Source of the DNA: a virus | Strand: one strand, 5' to 3' | IMG/VR virus record: IMGVR_UViG_3300032242_000714 | Span: 1 to 58,878 of that record | Length of the DNA: 58,878 nucleotides | Shown here: one piece after another, positions 3,640 to 52,917 of the stretch | Numbering within the stretch: position 1 is the stretch's first letter | Layout: every line of letters begins with the position of its first letter | Made by a program: the position numbers and the translations under genes | Notes under the pieces: model-generated | Told to the model about the DNA's origin: nothing | Databases searched by the model: none | Seen by the model: only the letters and a program-made list of their open reading frames with translations

Positions 3640-4088
3640 AACAAGAGAATGACGAATACCTATGTAAGGTATTCCCTAAGATGACAGCCAACCGCAATCT
3701 GCCGATGACCGAAACTGCTATGTGTTGGGGATTTGAATGTGGCGATGGTTGGTTCCCGCTTATAAATCAATTGATGAGCAATATCCAACATCACCTTGAT
3801 TGGAAAAATAAAGATAGCGAAGTTGTTCCACAAGTAACGCTGGACCAAGTTAAAGAAAAGTTTGGCACACTAAGATTTTATTACACAGGCGGCGATGACT
3901 ATATTAGAGGGATGGTTGCAATGGCAGAAGCAATGTCAGGGATCCTTTGTGAGAAGTGTGGGAAACCTGCTACTACCAATTGGCCTACACTCCCCAAAGG
4001 AGGATGGGTCAGAACTTTATGTGTAGAACACGGTGGTGAAGATTACAGTATGTCAGAAGAAGAATTTTTAGAAAAGGAAAAAGAATGA
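3636..4088 (+). CDS. Conserved phage protein with C-terminal zinc-ribbon-like motif
   Basis: 150 residues. The N-terminal half has the conserved string [14 protein letters not shown] and the middle has [12 protein letters not shown], hallmarks of an uncharacterised family seen in many phages and some bacteria. The C-terminal part has CEKCGK and, about 25 residues later, LCVEH, which could form a CxxC...CxxH zinc site. The overlap with clpP (ATGA) implies co-translation. A role in nucleic-acid or protein binding is plausible but unproven. Confidence 0.65.
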
Positions 4089-9123: not shown

Positions 9124-10148
9124 CCAAACGCATAGGCTTTGCCTGTAAGTGGATCGATCGTGCAGATCAAGTAGACGGTATTAAATCATCAGATGATTGT
9201 AAACAATTCAACACAGGTAGTACAACTGTCACCTGGCTTAACCGTCAAACCCGTGAAGTAGCAGAACAAAAACTTTGGGACTTAATGGTACAAAACATTG
9301 AGTCAGTTCGTAAACTTATAGAAAGAGTAGGAACCCTAGATGACCATTTACGCATGGTACGTATTGGCAGTGATATACTGCCTGTGTACACTCACGATGA
9401 TTGGATGTATTTCTGGCGCAGGACTGATGTCATTAACTACTGCGAAAAACACTTCCGAGAGGCAGGCGATATTGCTCGGCTACGGAACGTTCGCTTGTCT
9501 TTCCATCCTGGCCAGTTTACTGTCCTGGCATCGGACAATCCAGATATTGTCAACAGAAGTATAATGGAGTTTGAGTATCATGCAGATATGGCCCGTTGGA
9601 TGGGATTTGGTAGACAATTCCAGGACTTCAAGATCAATGTACACATTGCCGGACGTAGAGGCCCCCAAGGTATCCGAGACGTCCTCCCTCGACTCTCTCC
9701 AGAAGCCAGAAACTGTCTTACAATCGAAAACGATGAAATGTCCTGGGGCCTGGACGCCAGCCTTGAGCTTGGTCGAGATGTCGCCTTGGTTTTGGACATA
9801 CACCACCACTGGATCAATACAGGAGAGTATATATCACCACAGGATGATAGATGTTTACGTGTAATTGATAGTTGGCGTGGTGTCAGACCTGTAATACACT
9901 ACTCTGTTAGTAGAGAAGATGTTGTAGTAGGACATGAGTTGGTTACTCGCCCTAATTTGCCTGTATTATTAGAATCTGGCTACAAAAAACAAAAACTGCG
10001 GGCCCATAGTAATTTCTATTGGAACACCGCAGTTAATGAGTGGGCACTTGAGTTCACAGATAATTTTGATATTATGTGTGAATCCAAAGCCAAAAACTTA
10101 GCAAGTTTTGCTCTTGCCAAGCAGGCTAAAGAATTAAATCTTCTTTGA
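9120..10148 (+). CDS. uvsE: UV-damage endonuclease UvsE/UvdE
   Basis: 342 residues of the TIM-barrel UVDE family, which nicks 5' of pyrimidine dimers and other lesions. Seen: the N-terminal IGFACKW strand, RIGSDILP, the metal-ligand segment LSFHPGQFTVLAS, NVHIAGRRG, LTIENDEMSWG, and ALVLDIHHHWIN, followed by IHYSVSRED. These His/Glu/Asp clusters match the three-metal active site. It probably replaces T4 DenV for repair of UV damage in sunlit water. It overlaps the preceding small gene by ATGA, and its last 15 bases overlap a minus-strand gene. Confidence 0.9.
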   Translation: MTKRIGFACKWIDRADQVDGIKSSDDCKQFNTGSTTVTWLNRQTREVAEQKLWDLMVQNIESVRKLIERVGTLDDHLRMVRIGSDILPVYTHDDWMYFWRRTDVINYCEKHFREAGDIARLRNVRLSFHPGQFTVLASDNPDIVNRSIMEFEYHADMARWMGFGRQFQDFKINVHIAGRRGPQGIRDVLPRLSPEARNCLTIENDEMSWGLDASLELGRDVALVLDIHHHWINTGEYISPQDDRCLRVIDSWRGVRPVIHYSVSREDVVVGHELVTRPNLPVLLESGYKKQKLRAHSNFYWNTAVNEWALEFTDNFDIMCESKAKNLASFALAKQAKELNLL

Positions 10149-10478
10149 TTTTGTTCTTGCTTTAGGAGTAGCCTTGGCCTTTGGTGCTGCCTTTGGCTTG
10201 GCTACTTTAGGAGCGGCGGCTTTAGGAGTACGTGGCTTGCGTGGCTTCTTGGCAGGTTCTGCAACCTGAACTGTTTCAAGGTCAAGTGCAACAGATACTG
10301 GATCTAGTGTAGTCTTGGCCTCTACCTGCACTTCTTCTTTAGCGGCAAACTTAATACCGTTGTCAGAAGATACTGTTTCTACTTTATAAGGTGCTTCTGT
10401 TGTTTTAGTTGATCTTGTGCTCTTAATAAGCAAATAACCAATAACGAGAATAAAAGCACCACCGATAAATAATTCCAT
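10134..10478 (-). CDS. Membrane-anchored protein with histone-H1-like Lys/Ala/Pro tail
   Basis: The start at 10478 has an AAAGGAA ribosome site on the minus strand; longer in-frame starts lack one. 114 residues: an N-terminal transmembrane helix (about 3-18), an acidic/polar middle, then from residue 75 a Lys/Ala/Pro repeat tail (KPRKPRTPKAAAPKVAKPKA...). Such tails bind DNA or RNA non-specifically. Together this suggests a protein that tethers nucleic acid to the membrane, an inference. It is convergent with and overlaps the UV endonuclease gene, and divergent from the superoxide dismutase gene. Confidence 0.75.
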   Translation of the reverse strand: MELFIGGAFILVIGYLLIKSTRSTKTTEAPYKVETVSSDNGIKFAAKEEVQVEAKTTLDPVSVALDLETVQVAEPAKKPRKPRTPKAAAPKVAKPKAAPKAKATPKARTKSKKI

Positions 10479-10542
10479 GATAGGATTCCTTTCAATTAAG
10501 TACGTATATTTATAACACTGGAAATTATAGGTAAATATTTTC

Positions 10543-11103
10543 ATGTATAATTTTATAAAACGAGTCATTCAGGAAGGAAAGGGCCACGAGCCGTTAAAAC
10601 AAATTACGTTAGACTACGATCGGAAAGAGTTAGATCCGGCACTAAGTGAAGACACCTTAGATTATCATTTTGGTAAATTATACAAAGCCTATGTTGATCG
10701 ATTTAACAAAGGCGAAGGTGATCCAGATTTTAATGAAGCAGGTGCTTTCTTACATAGCATTTACTTTAGTCAGTTTCAAGAGTACAGCACAGGCAATAAA
10801 CCGTCAGGAATTGCCTTAGAATTCATTGAAAAGCATCACAAATCTTGGGATAAATTTAAAGAATCCTTTGAAGAAATTGCTATGAAGATACAGGGTAGTG
10901 GCTGGGCCTATCTTGCCAAAGACGGTAAAATCAAAACAATTATCAACCACGAAATTAAAAATGATATTATTCTATTGATAGATTGGTGGGAACACGCATG
11001 GGCTCTCGACTATCAAGCAGATAAAAAGAAATATCTTACCAACCAATGGAAGATTATAAACTGGGAAATCATCAACATAAGACTTCTGCCAATTTCCAAA
11101 TAA
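10543..11103 (+). CDS. Fe/Mn-family superoxide dismutase with N-terminal extension
   Basis: 186 residues. Metal ligands are intact: His42 (YHFGK), His71 (FLHSIYF), Asp147 and His151 (DWWEHAW). The GSGWAYL strand and the C-terminal NQWKIINWEI are also typical. The outer-sphere position usually Gln or Ala appears as His136 (NHEI), as in some Fe-type enzymes. Residues 1-20 are an extension not found in normal enzymes; MYNFIKRVIQEGKG resembles T4 capsid-targeting leaders cut after I/L-x-E. A GTAAATA box (10531-10537) precedes the ATG by five bases and there is no clear ribosome site. The role would be to remove superoxide during infection or in the virion. Confidence 0.88.
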   Translation: MYNFIKRVIQEGKGHEPLKQITLDYDRKELDPALSEDTLDYHFGKLYKAYVDRFNKGEGDPDFNEAGAFLHSIYFSQFQEYSTGNKPSGIALEFIEKHHKSWDKFKESFEEIAMKIQGSGWAYLAKDGKIKTIINHEIKNDIILLIDWWEHAWALDYQADKKKYLTNQWKIINWEIINIRLLPISK

Positions 11104-28073: not shown

Positions 28074-30503
28074 ATGAAAAGTAAAATATCTAGGTATACC
28101 GTTAATATTGACACTGCATTCCCGGTAGCAGGGCAGGACAATGATCCACAGGGATTTAGAGATAACTTTTCTAATATAAAATTTGCTCTTACTCAAGCAT
28201 CTATAGAAATAAATACCGCATCTCAAAATCTAAATCCTATAATTCATACTGATCTAATTATAGATCCGCCTACAAAATCATTAAACATAAATTCTGCTAC
28301 AATTGCATTAAGTCAAACTTTAAATGGAACGCCCATATTAAATATTTCTGGTGTTCATGATATATCGTTAAACAACGAAAAATTAGCAGCCAGCATTTCT
28401 TTAGGTAACATAAGTTTGCAATATCCTGAAATTGGACAAATGGCGTTATCTCCTACAGGTTCTTATATTGCCACAGGTAGTACAGGAACCGTAAGTCTAG
28501 GTACAGGAACATGGACAAAATTAAATTCGGGCATAGAAAGTAATAGACTTATTGTTGTTAAACCAACAGCATCGGTTAGTGCAATATCTCCTATACCAAA
28601 TGTTACCTGCGATGTATCAATGGGTACAAGATTTTATATACCTAATCCGGGAACAAATATTGCATTGAATTTTATAAATTTACCTCCTTCACCGTTTGAA
28701 GTAGAAGTATATGTTACAGTTAAATTAGCCCCTAATACATATAGCGCAATAGAGGGAATATTTATAAATGGTGGTGCTATTCAGACCACTATGACTGATA
28801 ATCCTGGAAGGTTTGTAGATGGGGGTGGGGGTGGTTTAACATATAGTTTAGACTCTCCGGGATGGGGATTCAAACAAAAAATTACAATTATGTCTACTGA
28901 AAAAGATCAGTATAGCATTTTTAGTACAGAAGACATATTCTTATCTCCTAGATCAGTATATTCATCTCAGTTAACACAAGATCAACTTACAAGTTATGTA
29001 CCTCCAGCAGGCGGATATGTTCCTCCTTTAGCAAATAACATACCTGGACAACAAGCATTAACAATAAACGGAGTAGGAGATGGCGGAACGCTAAATCTAC
29101 CAATTGCATATGGCGGGGTTCCATATTCATATACATTTACAATTGGAGGGACACAGTTTAATCCAAACATAAACTATGCTATAACTAGTGTAGGATCTAT
29201 AATTTCGGGACTATCATTAGCAATAGGAAAAAATAGTGCCACGCTACAGGGAGCGGCTGGATTAACTCTTGTAACTTCAAATTTTGATATAATTGTTTCA
29301 CCAAAGTATAATCCTACAGGTATTTCGTGTAGGGTACATGTTTCATTGCCAAATGCCAATGCACAAACCCAATCAACAAGAGTTGTAGAAGATGTCATTG
29401 CATCGGCTCCAACACCACCTCCAACACCATATACACCAGAACCTCCGCAGAAACCTTTTGTACAAGCATCTGCTGTTGCTGTTTCTAAACTGGATCCTAA
29501 GCCAGCACAACCTGTTGTAACTAATAATGTAACACCACCTGTGGCACCATCACAGGCAACAATAAAGCCTGGAGATCCAGTACCTGGTCAACCAGGGTTG
29601 GTTTACACAGGTGTAAGCAGTATTGGAACAGATAAAAACGGAAACGTTGGACTGATCCCTCAAACTGCAACCATAGAGCAAATGAGGCCGATATCGATAG
29701 AGGAGGGGAATGCACGGCTGGCGGCAGCGTTGGCGATAGTAGCGCCTTCCCAAAAGGTGGTCGATGTAAAATTAGAGGCTATTAATACTTATGGAGCACC
29801 ATTACCCGGATCAACTCCATACGATGACGGTACTTATGGATCACAATATCTTAACTATAATACAACAAATGCTGTCAAAATTCAAGCAACAATAAAAACA
29901 GCAGACGGCAGAACTAGAATACAGACTCTTGACTCAATAGATGCTGGTGGCTCATCCACCGTAGTCGGTGATGGGTTGCCCGGATTGGACGGAAAAGTCA
30001 TTGACTATAGGTATAGCAGTACGGCTGCCCCTGGAGGAGGGGTCTATTTACAGAACGGTGGTAATCTTACATATACCGTGCGTGATAATACAACTCAACC
30101 AACAGTAAATACTGTACCATTAAACAATATCTCAGCACCAACTACAGTAGCAGTAAATGACAACACTAGTGTTAGTGTAAATGCAGGTTCATCATATGCT
30201 GGTGCAACTTTAAACTTAATTACCACTACACCAGATAATACTAAAACTACTCAGCCAGTTGTAGCAGACAGTTCTGGAAATATTAATATTACAGGAATAC
30301 CTACTAGTCAACCAGGTAATGTTAATGTTACAGTTGTAGCAGATAACAGTAATCAGGTTTCTGCTAATATAGGCGTGGGTTATCGATCGCAACAGCAGAT
30401 CATACATCAGCAATACTTAGATTCTTTAACCACTCCTAGCACGAGCGGTGACGGGGGTGGTAGCGGTGACGTCTCAGGTGGTGGTGGCAGCGCAGGCAAT
30501 TAA
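28074..30503 (+). CDS. Structural protein with GQDN..GFRDNF attachment module, form A
   Basis: 809 residues. N-terminal module: VNIDTAFPVAGQDNDPQGF then RDNFSNIKFALTQA, the same layout as the next-but-one gene, implying a common docking partner. A beta domain follows (to about 300), a Pro-rich linker (about 440-530, PTPPPTPYTPEPPQKP), and a C-terminal beta-rich region with Ig-like VNVTVVADNSN strands and a Gly/Ser-rich end. Likely a baseplate-attached fibre or decoration protein. No catalytic motif. Confidence 0.7.
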   Translation: MKSKISRYTVNIDTAFPVAGQDNDPQGFRDNFSNIKFALTQASIEINTASQNLNPIIHTDLIIDPPTKSLNINSATIALSQTLNGTPILNISGVHDISLNNEKLAASISLGNISLQYPEIGQMALSPTGSYIATGSTGTVSLGTGTWTKLNSGIESNRLIVVKPTASVSAISPIPNVTCDVSMGTRFYIPNPGTNIALNFINLPPSPFEVEVYVTVKLAPNTYSAIEGIFINGGAIQTTMTDNPGRFVDGGGGGLTYSLDSPGWGFKQKITIMSTEKDQYSIFSTEDIFLSPRSVYSSQLTQDQLTSYVPPAGGYVPPLANNIPGQQALTINGVGDGGTLNLPIAYGGVPYSYTFTIGGTQFNPNINYAITSVGSIISGLSLAIGKNSATLQGAAGLTLVTSNFDIIVSPKYNPTGISCRVHVSLPNANAQTQSTRVVEDVIASAPTPPPTPYTPEPPQKPFVQASAVAVSKLDPKPAQPVVTNNVTPPVAPSQATIKPGDPVPGQPGLVYTGVSSIGTDKNGNVGLIPQTATIEQMRPISIEEGNARLAAALAIVAPSQKVVDVKLEAINTYGAPLPGSTPYDDGTYGSQYLNYNTTNAVKIQATIKTADGRTRIQTLDSIDAGGSSTVVGDGLPGLDGKVIDYRYSSTAAPGGGVYLQNGGNLTYTVRDNTTQPTVNTVPLNNISAPTTVAVNDNTSVSVNAGSSYAGATLNLITTTPDNTKTTQPVVADSSGNINITGIPTSQPGNVNVTVVADNSNQVSANIGVGYRSQQQIIHQQYLDSLTTPSTSGDGGGSGDVSGGGGSAGN

Positions 30504-51665: not shown

Positions 51666-52544
51666 ATGAAAATAGATCAATTATTCGAATCAGGTGACGA
51701 TTTAGCATCTCAGTTTGCTCAGATGGCTAAAGATAAAGGCATGAATGTTAGAGTTCGTGGAACCCCAGACCAAGAACGACAACGTACACAAGATATGTTG
51801 GCGCAACGTCGTGCTGATCAAGAAAAACAAAGTCAATTAGCAGGTGAAAAAGATTTTGCTAATCTTGACCAACTTGAAGCCGAATACGCAAAAATGAAAG
51901 ACGAATATCAATCATTAGGCGGATCTAATTGGCAGTATGCTGATCGTGAACAGAATCTATCAGCCAGCGAACGTAAGGCCCGCAGTATGGAAGATGGATT
52001 AAGAGCACTATGGTCGAGAATCCAACGTGCTAAGAAATATGGTGGAGGTTTAGCGGAAGGTGATGCTCTTGCTGACTTTTTAGCAAAGGGCGGAAAAATT
52101 CATCAATTACCTTACAAAAACCCACGTAAGGCCGATAAAACAGATTATGGTAGTAAACATATTGGTACATTAGGCGGCAAAGGTACAAAAGGTAAAGTCA
52201 CCGGCAAGGCGGCAAATGTAGGAAAAGTAGGGAAACCTGTTGTAAGTGCCGAAAGTTCACATCCTGACGAAAAAGAAGATAAAGCACTTATTCGTAAAAT
52301 GGTTAAACAACAGGCATTGAAAAAAGAAAACATGATGGCAAAAGAACAGCATGAAGATCATGAAATATCAATGGCCACAAGCGAATTAAAAAATGTTTAC
52401 ATCAATGCTAAAAAATTGTTTGATATTATTAAACAACGCAGTGAACAAGAAGGATTAGATGCTTGGCAACAGAGCAAGATTACCAAAGCCTCAGATTACT
52501 TAAATAGTGTATTAACAGCCATTAGAGGCGAACCACGTAGATAA
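51666..52544 (+). CDS. Basic helical phage protein, likely virion-associated
   Basis: 292 residues from ATG 51666, five bases after the preceding stop; a longer in-frame start (51606) lies inside the previous gene. Leader MKIDQLFESGDDLASQF, then a coiled-coil region (DQERQRTQDMLAQRRADQEK), a Lys/Gly-rich centre (GGKIHQLPYKNPRKADKTD), and C-terminal helices. No ribosome site. The basic middle resembles DNA-associated internal head proteins of marine T4-like phages. Confidence 0.65.
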   Translation: MKIDQLFESGDDLASQFAQMAKDKGMNVRVRGTPDQERQRTQDMLAQRRADQEKQSQLAGEKDFANLDQLEAEYAKMKDEYQSLGGSNWQYADREQNLSASERKARSMEDGLRALWSRIQRAKKYGGGLAEGDALADFLAKGGKIHQLPYKNPRKADKTDYGSKHIGTLGGKGTKGKVTGKAANVGKVGKPVVSAESSHPDEKEDKALIRKMVKQQALKKENMMAKEQHEDHEISMATSELKNVYINAKKLFDIIKQRSEQEGLDAWQQSKITKASDYLNSVLTAIRGEPRR

Positions 52545-52545
52545 T

Positions 52546-52917
52546 ATGAGAGCAAAAGAATTCATAGTCGAAACTAAACCAGAAGGCAAGATGCACCCAC
52601 ATCACGCGAATGTAGGACAAGGCGTATCAAGATCACGTGATGTAGGCGGATATGATCGTGTGTATCACATGAATCGACTAATGATGGCTATGGGAATGGC
52701 AGACGGTAAAAGTGAAAAACCTGTAGAGATGGATTCTGCATCATGGACAGAAAAATACAATACACATCATCCATATACAGAAGAAGAACATACCATGATC
52801 AAGTCTGCATTGAACACAATTCCTACAGACAGTAAAGAAATTACTCCTTGGTCAAAGAGTATTGAACCAGATGATACACATAAAGTAAGTCCTGTTGCAA
52901 ATTGGATGAAGAAATGA
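52546..52917 (+). CDS. Conserved small phage protein with capsid-targeting-like leader
   Basis: 123 residues starting MRAKEFIVETKPEGKMHPHH, where IVE (7-9) fits the I/L-x-E pattern of T4 prohead protease sites. Then RDVGGYDRVYHMNRLMMAMGMADG, a conserved-looking string, and an acidic/aromatic C-terminus. I recognise this kind of protein from marine T4-like phages. ATGA-coupled to the sigma-like gene. Internal head protein suggested. Confidence 0.7.
   Translation: MRAKEFIVETKPEGKMHPHHANVGQGVSRSRDVGGYDRVYHMNRLMMAMGMADGKSEKPVEMDSASWTEKYNTHHPYTEEEHTMIKSALNTIPTDSKEITPWSKSIEPDDTHKVSPVANWMKK

Follow-up and report, generated by a model that had tools for sequence, protein, structure and literature searches.

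A superoxide dismutase of T4-related giant phages with a leader that probably targets it into the prohead

The window, by which we mean the whole stretch of DNA analysed (58,878 nucleotides, a 58.9 kb virus record), is the source of a gene for an iron/manganese superoxide dismutase (SOD) that begins with an N-terminal leader. No tRNA or Rfam matches were found within the window. The features of the gene, together with two other genes whose products start in a similar way, are given below by their positions in the window.

10532 to 10537, plus strand: TAAATA, a T4-late-promoter-like core that starts 11 nt before the ATG
10543 to 11103, plus strand: Fe/Mn SOD gene with N-terminal leader, 186 aa, placed by its ATG start, Pfam and an AlphaFold2 model
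10543 to 10575, plus strand: leader MYNFIKRVIQE, a predicted capsid-targeting propeptide with a predicted cut after Glu11 (codon 10573-10575)
10576 to 10605, plus strand: variable linker from the predicted cut site to the SOD core, of low conservation in the alignment
10666 to 10995, plus strand: metal-ligand codons for H42 (10666-10668), H71 (10753-10755), D147 (10981-10983) and H151 (10993-10995), invariant in phage and cellular SODs
51666 to 52544, plus strand: protein with the leader-like start MKIDQLFE^SGDD and with TAAATA at -11
52546 to 52917, plus strand: protein with the leader-like start MRAKEFIVE^TKPEG, similar to a start at 72617 in the relative G001

The reading of the gene product as an SOD with every metal ligand, made in an earlier note on this DNA, was borne out. 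Both Pfam domains passed their curated cut-offs on the window protein (Sod_Fe_N, 1.8e-09, 38.3 bits versus a cut-off of 27; Sod_Fe_C, 1.7e-21, 76.6 bits versus a cut-off of 20.9), and H42, H71, D147 and H151 were invariant in an alignment of 83 phage homologues. Sod_Fe_N begins at residue 22 and Sod_Fe_C ends at residue 178, with the leader outside both. The best relatives in the PDB were Fe/Mn SODs, and the AlphaFold2 model (82-sequence alignment; mean pLDDT, 91.8) had the SOD fold, with Foldseek TM scores of about 0.8 to 1ues, 8avm and other PDB SODs; residues 1 to 13 of the model were disordered (pLDDT < 50).

Phage SODs share with cellular Fe/Mn SODs, such as those of Porphyromonas gingivalis and Bacteroides fragilis (SodFM2), the fold, the four ligands, Tyr34 and the Trp and Glu of the WEH motif. 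The cellular enzymes differ from them in having no leader, in a hairpin that is longer by about 19 residues (35 cellular SODs compared) and in their second shell, which has His30, Tyr174/166 and Gln146 (or Ala), in the residue numbering of E. coli and human SOD. At these positions the phage SODs have Leu (83/83), Trp or Phe (82/83) and His (83/83), respectively, and Leu or Ile stands two residues before the Asp ligand. The second-shell residues that are not kept in the phage clade are typical of catalysis and do not define it, and superoxide dismutase activity of the phage enzyme is likely, because it retains both the metal ligands and Tyr34.

When viral contigs were scanned, at least 597 stretches with relatives of this SOD were among the matches listed; two further scans, based on different alignments, yielded similar counts. 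Cultivated relatives are found in the Pseudomonas jumbo phages PA5oct, MIJ3, Callisto, Paride and others (43% identity) and in Vibrio phage 2.275.O (35% identity to the window SOD); several other matches of this search seem to be bacterial sequence within phage records. PA5oct and MIJ3 infect the laboratory strain PAO1 or relatives of it. The SODs of PA5oct and MIJ3 (Arenbergviridae, Wroclawvirus) resemble that of the window over nearly their full length and likewise carry an I-x-E leader. A protease of the gp21 family (S77, PF03420) was present in all 10 of the related records longer than 280 kb, and MIJ3 has an S77 protease; no S77 protease gene was found in the 58.9 kb window fragment or in several shorter, possibly partial, related records. 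A gene for a ClpS-like adaptor adjoins the SOD gene or lies within a few genes of it in three lineages (L082, which is MIJ3; L083, which is Vibrio phage 2.275.O; and L129). A narrow exact-phrase search of the literature found no paper on phage SOD.

The earlier note had also claimed that the protein begins with extra residues, and that these resemble the leaders of T4 internal proteins. Phage SODs have a median of 22 residues ahead of the conserved LPY, whereas cellular SODs mostly have 3 to 13, so that the phage extension is about 11 to 15 residues longer than cellular N-termini; where a cellular N-terminus is longer than this, it resembles a signal peptide or the result of a wrongly set start. 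A T4-like leader was not found in the 35 cellular SODs, which start close to LPY and form a small sample, collected by means of patterns derived from phage sequences. The earlier note had named conservation of the extension in cellular homologues as evidence against its reading; such conservation was rejected in this sample.

The T4 internal proteins IPII and IPIII begin MKTYQEFIAE^A. The T4 protease gp21 cuts after L/I-x-E, and the first 10 residues of IPIII suffice for targeting (PMC9026906; also PMC5694885, PMC3012670). With its predicted cut, the window leader reads MYNFIKRVIQE^GK, the motif being I9-Q10-E11. Leaders in 89 non-redundant phage SODs (<85% core identity to each other) diverge widely in sequence and length; examples are MAYNFIQKFIVE^GK, MKLHDFLTE^DK, MREIITLIE^SR, MRDIIDLVE^AT and MKIRLLLE^SK, and the MIJ3 leader is MNDSIKKYISIAE^AA. 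The motif [ILV]xE was present in 85 of these 89 leaders, versus 37 ± 4 by shuffling (SD 4.4; maximum, 52; 2000 shuffles), and one of the four exceptions reflects a mis-set start, which brings the count to about 86 of 89. In the alignment of 83 sequences, picked for clear starts and lengths, Glu was present in all 83, at a residue number between 8 and 23 (a few at 8 to 9 or as far as 23), P3 was L, I or V in 81 and P1' was G, A or S in 68, with a flexible linker after the motif; since this set leaves out the exceptions, 85 to 86 of 89 is the fairer figure. These properties support the likeness to T4 leaders.

An I-x-E near the N-terminus of a single protein is common by chance, as in ClpP at 4085 (MSLIPMVIE), and the significance of the motif therefore lies in its conservation across divergent leaders and not in a match in one protein. 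The explanation that the I-x-E of the SOD is such a chance match, in an extension without function, was rejected as very improbable, the Glu being invariant in 83 divergent sequences and the motif count lying far outside the shuffle range. When applied to whole proteomes with Glu at positions 8 to 14, the loose motif gave 101 matches versus 63 expected, and was rejected as a cargo list by itself, being too noisy and yielding false positives such as ClpP.

The leader might instead dock to a membrane or to a host or phage partner, the SOD being an auxiliary metabolic enzyme that works in the infected cell's cytoplasm and is neither packaged nor cleaved; the intact metal site is in keeping with this. 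However, [I/L/V]-x-E is the only element strongly kept in the divergent leaders, a pattern expected of a protease site rather than of a docking surface. Two further properties of the SOD genes, their promoter core and their fusions, also argue against a cytoplasmic enzyme.

Of 81 SOD genes, 55 have TAAATA no more than 35 nt from the ATG, mostly starting at -11, versus 4.3 in shuffles. Starts of TAAATA spike at -12 to -10 genome-wide (29, 26 and 27 starts in the related genomes G001, G002 and G006, respectively), and the window genes with TAAATA at that spacing are those for the SOD, for an 809-aa protein at 28074 and for the leader-bearing protein at 51666. The core resembles the T4 late promoter, TATAAATA, with T4 geometry, and late transcription of the SOD gene, driven by a T4-type late promoter beside its start codon, is probable. 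With this geometry transcription would start at or near the ATG, so that late mRNAs may be leaderless. The SOD genes of PA5oct and MIJ3, unlike that of the window, encode the leader MNDSIKKYISIAE and have TAAATA at -29 and none at -11. Co-occurrence of leader and late promoter across all genes was not significant. Next to the SOD gene and divergent from it, a membrane protein whose tail is rich in Lys, Ala and Pro is encoded at 10134-10478 on the minus strand; upstream of this gene, on the minus strand, is a perfect T4-late-like TATAAATA, in the form TATTTATA at 10507-10514.

Five loci (L011, L042, L062, L071 and L073) encode an SOD whose C-terminus is joined to an SGNH-like domain, for which the Pfam match is weak and confined to L011. 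A [V/I]-x-E motif is kept at the junction of SOD and SGNH in these fusions. The junction in L042, FTKVISE^SKFSKIVVVGDSIALG, can be aligned to the N-terminus of a G002 protein that stands alone and bears a leader, FKLVLKE^NKQS-VVIIGDSIAVG (BLASTP, 1e-4 in a single comparison), as if the SGNH partner's own leader had been kept in the fusion as an internal cut site. The SODs that have no N-terminal leader, those of L083 (Vibrio), L053 and L256, carry C-terminal extensions, with KMLDES in L083 (19998-20567; Vibrio phage 2.275.O) and LIVKES in L053. C-terminal propeptides have also been reported for Alt and gp21 of T4 (PMC9026906), so a C-terminal tag on the leaderless phage SODs is possible, if speculative.

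As to the virion, the SOD homologue of PA5oct (EST35_0261) carries the note ESI-MS/MS in its GenBank record. Exactly 93 coding sequences of that record carry the note, and the omics paper on PA5oct reportedly gives the same number of virion-associated proteins in its abstract. The marked proteins also include cytoplasmic enzymes, namely ribonucleotide reductase, thymidylate synthase and ligase, so that the SOD may have copurified, and its mark is supportive of packaging but not proof. The loose leader motif was not enriched among the marked proteins of PA5oct (14/93 versus 36/264); a strict motif, chosen after looking, was found in 6/93 marked proteins versus 2/264 others (P = 0.005). In the MIJ3 paper, four virion proteins only were identified, from gel bands, and the SOD was not among these. 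Packaging of the enzyme in the head, as the earlier note had proposed, thus gained support from a marked homologue where absence from virions would have counted against it, and copurification is the qualification that stays with it. That leaderless enzymes are on the PA5oct list, where detection may mean copurification, also fits a purely cytoplasmic role for the SOD, which we nevertheless consider unlikely given the motif, the promoter core and the fusions.

Like T4 IPI, IPII, IPIII and Alt, the phage SOD has a short leader at its N-terminus that ends in L/I-x-E and is followed by a small residue, and the likeness to T4 extends to the S77 protease (gp21 family) of the large related phages and to the late-type promoter core. 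Similar starts are found on other proteins of related phages (MKTFKDYLRE^A, MTSFKQILSE^S and MKVKEILTE^G). The two systems differ in that the cargo of T4 is an anti-restriction or unknown protein and the cargo here is predicted to be a catalytic SOD, and in that the length of the SOD leader varies more than that of T4 (Glu at 8 to 23).

We hold it very probable that this is a late-made SOD of T4-related giant phages, which a T4-like leader directs into the prohead, where it is trimmed. Points that count against this reading are the possible copurification in PA5oct, the loose motif not being enriched among the marked proteins, the leader and late promoter not co-occurring significantly across genes, and the search of the window fragment finding no protease gene. 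Packaging in the head, which is a prediction for the phage of the window, is well supported; for cleavage after Glu11, ejection with the DNA and a benefit to the phage, we infer the following course. The SOD would be made late from the T4-type late promoter next to its start codon, and its disordered leader would bind the prohead core in the manner of the capsid-targeting sequence of T4 internal proteins. The S77 (gp21-type) protease of the phage would then remove the leader after [I/L/V]-x-E, here after Glu11, leaving the mature SOD inside the head, from which it would be ejected into the host along with the DNA. There it may remove superoxide during the first minutes of infection, ahead of phage gene expression; alternatively, the benefit may be protection of the packaged genome.

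The SOD may also be packaged and not ejected, staying with the virion and shielding the packaged DNA or the capsid from oxidation outside the cell. The evidence for packaging is identical for both readings, but T4 leader proteins, and foreign proteins fused to a T4 leader, are delivered into cells (PMC9026906); by this analogy, which is all that separates the two, we regard retention in the virion as a real but lesser possibility. We give about even chances to the full proposal that a widespread lineage of giant phages carries in its capsid a specialised and compact SOD clade with a remodelled second shell (His30 to Leu, Tyr to Trp) and injects it with its DNA against early superoxide.

In function, the nearest precedent is a Cu/Zn SOD of chlorovirus PBCV-1 (A245R), the product of a late gene, which is packaged in the virion and has been proposed to lower superoxide in infection (PMC7019647). 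Unlike the phage SOD, it is an unrelated Cu/Zn enzyme of an algal virus, for which that source describes no T4-type leader or prohead protease system.

T4 is the precedent for a phage that preloads its head with anti-restriction proteins. Injection of an antioxidant enzyme, if true, would extend such preloaded cargo to the physiology of the host, and it would become directly testable whether superoxide plays a part in early defence against phages. The conserved I-x-E leader, applied family by family, would provide a rule for finding head cargo in uncultivated giant phages.
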